From positions 124,001 to 188,000 of the forward strand of contig JABJKS010000051.1 of NCBI GenBank assembly GCA_018660265.1: DNA of 64,000 nt. Direction: 5' to 3'. Each line of letters starts with the position of its first letter. Position 1 is the first letter of the stretch. Shown here piece after piece: positions 4,589 to 23,028 of this stretch. A program made the position numbers and the translations under genes. The notes beneath the pieces were generated by a model, which saw only the letters and a program-made list of their open reading frames with translations, was not told the origin of the DNA and searched no databases. This DNA is from Rhodospirillaceae bacterium. GTDB lineage: Bacteria > Pseudomonadota > Alphaproteobacteria > GCA-2731375.

Positions 4589-4877
4589 GCGGGCTTGTGC
4601 CAATATTTAGCGCGGATCGGTCCTGCTTTAACGAATTATTGATCGCCAGAACGTTATATATGGTCCTATATGGTGATATGTCTTGAATCGATTAGGCATA
4701 TGAGTGGCGTCCAGGGTTGTGATCGCAACCTGTATAAGGTTCCATTGACCCATTCCCGGGTCTCTGATACTGCGTTATTGGGTAGATTCACTGACTACCT
4801 TGGATGAAACCAGATTTTAACGCCGCCGGGTTGGCATAATTCTCCGGTCCGTTCGGCAAAGTTGAGCAGGGGTTAAG

Positions 4878-6143
4878 ATGACGAAGCTTAGCGGCGGCGA
4901 TTCAAAAAACACGCTGTATTGTTCCTTCTGCGGCAAGAGCCAGCACGAAGTACGTAAGCTCATTGCTGGCCCCACCGTATTCATCTGCGATGAATGCGTT
5001 GAACTATGCATGGATATTATTCGTGAAGAGAATAAATCCACCTTGGTTAAGGCCGACGATGGGGTGCCGACACCGCAGGAAATCTGCGATGTCCTTGATG
5101 ATTATGTAATTGGGCAGGGGCACGCGAAAAAGGTCCTCTCCGTCGCGGTGCATAACCATTACAAGCGCCTTAATCACGGTACCAAAAGTACCGATGTCGA
5201 AATTGCAAAATCCAATATTCTGCTGGCCGGCCCGACCGGTTGCGGCAAAACACTGTTGGCCCAGACATTGGCGCGGATCATTGATGTCCCCTTCACCATG
5301 GCGGATGCCACCACCTTGACCGAGGCCGGTTATGTGGGTGAAGACGTTGAGAACATTATTTTGAAATTGCTGCAGGCAGCCGATTACAATGTGGAACGGG
5401 CCCAACGCGGCATCGTCTATATTGATGAGGTCGATAAGATCAGCCGCAAATCCGATAATCCCTCGATTACCCGTGATGTCTCGGGCGAAGGTGTGCAGCA
5501 GGCCCTGTTGAAGATCATGGAAGGCACGGTCGCCTCCGTCCCGCCGCAAGGGGGGCGCAAACATCCGCAACAGGAATTCCTGCAAGTCGATACGACCAAT
5601 ATCCTGTTCATCTGTGGCGGTGCCTTTGCAGGCCTTGAGAAGCTGATTGCCAATCGTGGTATGGGTACTTCAATTGGGTTTGGTGCCGATGTGCGTGACC
5701 CCGATGACCGGATGACCGGCGAGATCCTGCGTGGGGTGGAGCCGGAGGATCTGTTGAAATTCGGCTTGATCCCTGAATTCGTCGGTCGCCTGCCGGTGGT
5801 TGCGACCCTGGAAGACCTCGATGAAGAAGCCTTGGTGCGCATCCTGACAGAGCCGAAGAACGCTTTGGTCAAGCAATACCAGCGTCTGTTCGATATGGAA
5901 GATACCAAGCTGGCATTTTCCGAGGATGCACTACATGCCATTGCCCGCAAGGCCATTGCCCGGAAAACCGGTGCCCGTGGCCTGCGTTCTATAATGGAGA
6001 TGATTTTGCTCGATACCATGTACGAGCTGCCATCTGAAGAGGGGGCGGAAGAAGTGGTCATCAATGGCGAAGTGGTCGAAGGCCGGGCGCAACCCCTCTA
6101 TATTTATGCCGAGCGTCAAGAGGACGTCGGGACAGGGGCTTAG
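4878..6143 (+). CDS. clpX: Clp protease ATP-binding specificity subunit, 421 aa
   Basis: ClpX is the AAA+ unfoldase that recognises substrates and threads them into ClpP. The N-terminal C4 zinc finger is intact (Cys15, Cys18, Cys37, Cys40). Walker A GPTGCGKT is at 118-125, the pore loop GYVG at 151-154, and Walker B ends in Asp183-Glu184 (VYIDEVDK). The [20 protein letters not shown] block typical of ClpX follows. The gene is 289 bases after clpP. That gap holds a doubled TATATGGT (4657-4664 and 4667-4674) and probably clpX's own promoter, but I could not place one with confidence. Confidence 0.98.
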
Positions 6144-6152
6144 AGTAATTGC

Positions 6153-6180
6153 AGGGCCCGTTAATTCAGTACCGGGCCTT
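6153..6180 (+). terminator. Weak hairpin after clpX, possible terminator
   Basis: GGCCCG (6155-6160) pairs with CGGGCC (6173-6178), with two further weaker pairs and a 12-base loop. Only a short T-run (gatcttt) follows, so termination would be weak or partial. Confidence 0.4.
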
Positions 6181-6371
6181 GATCTTTAGGTAACCAACCG
6201 CCATCTCTAGTTCAGCCGGAATTAACTATGATACGACCATTGCTGCAAAGGCACTATTTGGCCCCCTAAGGATAGGTCCTCAGGGGATGGCCATTTAGGT
6301 ACGTGTCAGGGAATGCCGGCTTTCACAAGACAGCCCAATTATGGACGGGCGTACAAGTACAAGGTTTAGGC

Positions 6372-22358: not shown

Positions 22359-23006
22359 CTAGGCGAGGGCGCGAAGGTCTTCCAACGTCTTGGTCGCTTC
22401 CGGCCTGTAGGTATAATCCGCATCAATATCCGTGGCCCGGATAATGCCGCCGCCATCGATCACAAAGCGCGCCGGAATTGGCAGGGTCCAGCTTTCATCG
22501 CCGTTGTATTTCGGTAATTCAAGACCGAAGCCGCTATAGACTGCCTTTAGATCGTCCGGCACTTCAAAACGAAGCCCAAGCTGGGCCGCATAGGCGTTGC
22601 CCGGATCGGTCAACAGATGGAAATTAAGGTCACCTTTGTTGGTGGAGGCCCGGTTATGTTCCGGCATTTGTGGCGTCAATGCCACCAGGTTTGCACCGAG
22701 GCTTTCCAGTTCCTTTAACACTGCTTGCAAAGCATACAGCTCTGCATTGCAGTAGGGTCACCAAACGCCGCGAAAAACCGTCAGCACCATGGGTCCTTGG
22801 GCCAACAGGTCGGACGAACGCACAATATCACCCTTGGCATTTTCCAGGGCGAATTCAGGCAGGCTGTCGCCGACCTTGAGGGCGCGATCAACCGCACCGT
22901 TATCGCGCAGGGCTTGAGTGCCCGCGGCCATAACCGCGCGCTCCTCCGGCGTGCGCTTTGCCAGCCCGCCGGCACGTATCTTGTCGAGTTGTTCCGCTAA
23001 ATTCAT
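22359..23006 (-). CDS. Peroxiredoxin-like protein with in-frame UGA, probable selenoprotein, 215 aa
   Basis: The reading frame is interrupted once, by TGA at 22758-22760 (codon 83), and is otherwise intact to a normal TAA-type end. Upstream it reads GPMVLTVFRGVW and downstream PYCNAELYALQAVLKEL. The AhpC/TSA peroxiredoxin-like family has GxWCPYCNxEL here, so the UGA sits exactly at the first Cys of the CPYC redox motif (Sec83-x-x-Cys86). Later family marks LPIPARFVIDGGGIIRATD and a DYTYRPE end are present. The simplest reading is selenocysteine, giving a thiol peroxidase or oxidoreductase of the thioredoxin fold. A SECIS-like hairpin follows the UGA (22726-22751). The start has a ggggag ribosome site. 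Gene callers would split it in two. A plain nonsense mutation is the alternative. No selA, selB or tRNA-Sec lies in the window. Confidence 0.85.
22726..22751 (-). promoter_or_regulatory. Candidate bacterial SECIS element after the UGA codon
   Basis: On the minus strand, six bases after the UGA, TGCAATGCA pairs with TGCTTTGCA (9 positions, one T-T mismatch) around the loop GAGCTGTA. The loop begins 16 bases after UGA and contains G and U, as expected for SelB binding. The distance fits the known range for bacterial SECIS elements. Folding energy was not computed. Confidence 0.6.
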
Positions 23007-23028
23007 GATAGCATGCTCCCCATTTATG

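Follow-up and report, generated by a model that had tools for sequence, protein, structure and literature searches.

We asked whether a TGA codon that interrupts a peroxiredoxin-like gene on the minus strand of the window (the whole stretch of 64,000 nucleotides analyzed) represents a lesion, a genuine stop codon or a site of selenocysteine (Sec) insertion. Comparison with homologues indicated that the gene almost certainly encodes a true selenoprotein, in which UGA is predicted to be decoded as Sec at codon 83. This assignment was based on the conserved UGA, the existence of Cys counterparts, a hairpin found only in Sec forms, the presence of the Sec machinery and purifying selection on the sequence after the UGA.

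The preliminary description of this locus had proposed one in-frame TGA in a frame open on both sides over 215 codons. Translation from 23006 to 22359 bore this out on the minus strand, a strand that the preliminary description had not named; codon 83 was the single in-frame TGA, with 82 open codons before it and 132 after it, and the frame (M...FRGVW-U-PYCNAEL...RALA, then the stop) was otherwise intact. It had also been expected that standard gene calling would split the gene. The standard ORF list indeed contained the post-TGA part alone (22359-22730, starting from an internal TTG); the ORF caller split this well-supported selenoprotein at its active site. The translated protein matched Pfam AhpC-TSA (PF00578) over the gathering score with an E value of 2.2e-23, and the Redoxin model matched as well. 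None of the NCBIfam models matched the protein above its cut-off. The features of the locus are listed in Table 1.

Table 1. Positions of the gene, its key codons and the predicted RNA elements in the window.
Feature	Position	Strand	Remarks
Predicted Sec-containing peroxiredoxin-like gene, 215 codons	22359..23006	minus	ATG 23006-23004, stop TAG 22361-22359
UGA codon 83, predicted Sec, first position of UxxC	22758..22760	minus	TGA in 24 Sec-form copies, TGC/TGT in 19 Cys homologues
TGC codon 86, partner Cys of UxxC	22749..22751	minus	Invariant in 43/43; aligns with peroxidatic Cys of peroxiredoxins (solved structures)
Predicted bacterial SECIS hairpin, 8-bp upper stem UGCAGAGC/GCUUUGCA, loop UGUAU 22738-22734	22726..22746	minus	19 nt after UGA
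Predicted SECIS hairpin with predicted lower stem	22719..22754	minus	Lower stem not shared by all orthologues
Likely ribosome-binding site GGGGAG, 9 nt before ATG	23016..23021	minus	Read by eye from sequence

Conservation of the in-frame UGA

Among the 15 genomes searched in the order, nine had the gene (the window's own genome is one of them), at 53-100% identity, and every copy carried one TGA. A wider search, through 385 genomes of the class plus genome contigs in public collections, turned up both Sec and Cys forms. We aligned 24 TGA copies and 19 Cys homologues (43 sequences); the TGA copies came from the order itself, from elsewhere in the Alphaproteobacteria and from public contigs. Sec-form copies down to 35% identity had TGA at exactly codon 83, and the aligned column contained TGA in 24/24 Sec forms and TGC or TGT in 19/19 Cys forms. 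The flanking W82, P84 and C86 were invariant, and UxxC was observed in all 24 Sec forms. The Sec/Cys pairs that the preliminary description had suggested looking for at codon 83 were thereby obtained, and the same column agreed with its claims that TGA occupies the first Cys position of a CxxC motif and that random nonsense mutations would rarely hit this codon.

Alternatively, this could be a Cys-type peroxiredoxin-like gene whose TGC or TGT has become TGA by nonsense mutation, making it a pseudogene, or reads as TGA because of a sequencing error. The genome containing the window is a draft of 121 contigs, and broken copies of the family do exist; a Cys homologue (L073, plus strand, frame 0, match residues 501-718) had an in-frame TAG five codons before the Cys and is either a broken copy or an error, in contrast with the conserved TGA. 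However, the 24 copies, from many independent assemblies, shared one TGA codon. Downstream of the UGA, dN/dS was 0.04-0.15 between the window gene and seven relatives and for four further pairs, in most pairs as low as before the UGA or lower, and these substitution patterns indicate that the post-TGA part is under purifying selection. Decay and sequencing error had both been named at the outset as possible grounds for abandoning the selenoprotein reading; no decay was observed (low dN/dS past the UGA and no other lesions), and sequencing error was excluded by the same TGA in independent genomes. We therefore give this explanation almost no credence.

A tree built without the Sec column required at least two changes of the Sec/Cys label, which was strongly clustered. 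A Sec paralogue (L099) grouped with Cys forms, with weak support and on a long branch. In one genome (locus L090), two tandem Sec-form copies were found at 4727-5368 and 5640-6281, both with TGA at codon 83.

Hairpin and decoding machinery

A SECIS-like hairpin had been claimed to follow the UGA. Folding of the window sequence past the UGA supported this claim and gave a minimum free energy (MFE) of -19.5 kcal/mol (z of -3.5 against dinucleotide shuffles), with a core 8-bp stem specific to the Sec form. Bacterial SECIS elements are described as having a loop of 3-9 nt, a stem of 4-16 bp, a spacing of 16-37 nt, a G at loop position 1 or 2 and an MFE of at most -7.5 (PMC13188914). The hairpin in the window lay within all of these limits: its stem has 8 bp, its loop has 5 nt, of which the second is G, the spacing is 19 nt and the MFE is below -7.5. 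Across the alignment, Sec forms formed a mean of 7.0 of the 8 pairs, 6.4 of them contiguous from the loop, compared with 4.2 and 1.5 in Cys forms. The mean MFE was -11.7 kcal/mol for Sec forms versus -5.4 for Cys forms (Mann-Whitney p of 8e-6, in which independence is overstated because the sequences are related). By these predictions, the SECIS hairpin is specific to Sec forms and absent from Cys homologues.

Codon choice within the stem was nearly fixed in the Sec genes: Glu89 was GAG in 24/24, Leu90 was CTG in 24/24 and Ala92 was GCT in 23/24. GCT was used for Ala92 in 0/19 Cys homologues and accounted for 7.7% of Ala codons elsewhere in the Sec genes; p-values for codon choice overstate independence, as the sequences share ancestry. 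This fixed choice suggests that the RNA itself was selected. A search for covariation in the hairpin found no two-sided compensatory changes and nothing beyond what shuffles gave, so the structural case was built on conservation, on codon choice and on how Sec forms differ from Cys forms. Compensatory changes would have little scope in so conserved a protein sequence.

The preliminary description had also proposed searching the genome for selA, selB, selD and selC, and all four were present. selB was located on the window's own contig (G000:C1:238797-240704) and scored above the NCBIfam cut-off, as did selD on contig 31. selA was assigned, by sequence and place rather than by model search, to the 487-aa ORF directly upstream of selB, and tRNA-Sec with anticodon UCA was found on contig 101. 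The selD gene (L102, G000:C31:57158-58084) contained an in-frame TGA too and probably also encodes a selenoprotein. A second selD domain (L103, G000:C97:58106-59017) was part of a 787-aa frame that has no TGA and may encode an Ndh-SelD fusion of the type known from marine data. We also asked whether a Sec-containing formate dehydrogenase accounts for the Sec system and rejected the idea, as no match above the cut-off was obtained in this genome.

Within the order, selB was present in 15/15 genomes and tRNA-Sec in 13/15; in one genome (G005) with the Sec-form gene and selB, tRNA-Sec was not found in the draft assembly. The presence of selB thus provided no contrast within the order, and the gene marks a lineage with selB in all 15 genomes searched. 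Outside the order, selB was present in 12/12 genomes with the Sec form compared with 2/14 with the Cys form (Fisher exact test, approximately 1e-5, calculated by hand). Outside the order, selB thus tracked the Sec form, and this association ties the codon to the decoding machinery. In one genome tRNA-Sec adjoined selB (G011:C171:27302-29429); in the window's genome the two lie on different contigs. In another, selB adjoined the Sec-form gene itself (G104:C73:133878-136659; L093, approximately 11.9 kb, reversed strand), and a further diverged Sec-form relative with GHW-U-PYC was found approximately 5.7 kb away.

Another possibility is that translation ends at this UGA, or that another residue is inserted there (Trp, through near-cognate reading or a changed code), to give a truncated or low-level product. 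UGA would terminate translation without the SECIS machinery, and several orthologues end in TGA. Sec-form genes terminated with TAA, TAG or TGA, indicating that TGA is also an ordinary stop within the family; the same fact excludes global UGA recoding there. However, the codon-83 column of the homologues contained Cys and never Trp, tRNA-Sec and selAB were present, and the Sec-form-specific hairpin was at the right distance. Termination at this codon, or its reading as another residue, is accordingly very improbable. For decoding as Sec, the established bacterial pathway suggests that SelA and SelD would make Sec on tRNA-Sec(UCA) and that SelB would bind the hairpin 19 nt past the UGA and deliver Sec-tRNA at codon 83.

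Fold, active site and putative mechanism

AlphaFold2, run on the alignment, produced a model with a pLDDT of 95 and a pTM of 0.91. Its nearest PDB match was AhpE (Z of 22.1, rmsd of 1.4 A over 151 residues), and peroxiredoxins were the best solved relatives in Foldseek as well. The peroxiredoxin fold covered residues 41-215, and the UxxC motif began just before a helix at 84-95. In alignment with BcpB and other peroxiredoxins, Sec83 corresponded to the Thr of TxxC and Cys86 to the peroxidatic Cys; in alignment with ResA, Sec83 corresponded to the first Cys of CxxC. The first CxxC residue is the nucleophile position of thioredoxins. The PxxxTxxC motif of classical peroxiredoxins was replaced by RGVWUPYC, in which Sec or Cys at position 83 stands for Thr, Arg79 replaces Pro (43/43) and only Cys86 is kept. 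Together, the model and the alignments indicate that the protein combines a peroxiredoxin fold with an active site of the thioredoxin type.

The product would be a peroxiredoxin-fold protein whose thioredoxin-like site, Sec83-Pro-Tyr-Cys86, lies where a helix begins. Sec83 would most likely be the selenol that attacks a disulfide or peroxide substrate; Cys86 would then close a selenenylsulfide, which a cellular thiol reductant would reopen. We infer these roles of Sec83 and Cys86 from the motif. Its most likely activity is that of a Prx-like UxxC protein, either a thiol-disulfide oxidoreductase or a peroxidase. A conventional peroxiredoxin mechanism, in which Cys86 attacks peroxide and Sec83 only resolves, or a mechanism of the PrxU type, would agree with the AhpC-TSA match, the peroxiredoxin fold and the position of Cys86 at the peroxidatic Cys. 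However, the residue that Sec matched was the Thr of TxxC, not the peroxidatic Cys, so the protein is not of the PrxU type; the Pro of the classical motif was Arg79 throughout, and NCBIfam peroxiredoxin models were matched far below their cut-offs. We consider such a mechanism unlikely and prefer Sec83 as the attacking residue. When neighbors within four genes were clustered at 24 loci, no family recurred beyond close relatives; therefore, gene context gave no substrate.

Relation to known families and other candidates

The family of predicted UxxC Prx-like selenoproteins is a known one and has appeared in catalogues since 2005 or earlier. Sargasso Sea data contained 22 genes of a UxxC Prx-like selenoprotein family (PMC1088965), and the GOS set contained 225 genes of Prx-like 1 (pfam00578, UxxC) (PMC2398784). 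A 2026 review lists a Prx-like thiol:disulfide oxidoreductase with UxxC and UxxU and, separately, a peroxiredoxin-like family protein (AhpC/TSA family protein, cd02970) with UxxS (PMC13188914). The window gene has both the PF00578 domain and UxxC (U83-P-Y-C86), and shares with the published UxxC proteins an AhpC-TSA assignment far from true peroxiredoxins, UxxC rather than TxxU and a bacterial SECIS straight after the UGA. Since the published entries are defined by Pfam/COG and motif, this likeness is one of description, not of alignment. RefSeq names Cys homologues of the window protein "peroxiredoxin-like family protein", the name of the cd02970 family, for which a Sec form is catalogued. 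However, the listed Sec form is UxxS, whereas all 24 Sec forms aligned here have UxxC.

The window protein was also compared with related families. PrxU (NF040737, Sec-containing thioredoxin-dependent peroxiredoxin) likewise has a peroxiredoxin fold and an active-site Sec, but its Sec is at the peroxidatic position (TxxU), whereas the window protein has Sec at the Thr position and Cys86 at the peroxidatic position (43/43); its model scored 14.8 bits against a cut-off of 270. SelL-related redox proteins (NF040769) are Prx-like too and matched weakly in 35/43 family members, with 27.7 bits for the window protein against a curated cut-off of 120. The 1-Cys peroxiredoxins AhpE and BcpB share the fold over residues 41-215; unlike the window protein with its UxxC, they have TxxC, at approximately 22-25% identity, and the window protein has an extra helical N-terminus of approximately 40 residues.

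Tentatively, the gene may represent an unlisted UxxC form of a cd02970-type family in Alphaproteobacteria, gained or lost at least twice, and a hybrid in which a selenenylsulfide oxidoreductase with Sec at the Thr position retains Cys86 at the peroxidatic site; we regard this as a possibility that we do not yet favor. The gene belongs to a selenoprotein type that other bacteria are known to have and opens no new kind of biology. Selenoprotein-finding programs could usefully be tested on it, given its naturally occurring Sec/Cys pairs and the marked difference in hairpins, and the same features suit it to studying the advantage of Sec over Cys in a thioredoxin-like site on a peroxiredoxin fold.

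A crude scan of the window for UGA selenoprotein candidates, using motif and hairpin, gave six sites, and the five besides codon 83 are most likely due to chance. Elsewhere in the same genome, a second UxxC selenoprotein candidate was observed on contig 48 (L020:1303-1782, minus strand; G000:C48). It is a 159-aa redoxin with GHW-U-PYC, and a hairpin (GCCGAC-AGUUG-GUCGGC) was found 16 nt past its UGA. Among its matches in the order, its own included, 10/11 carried one TGA.
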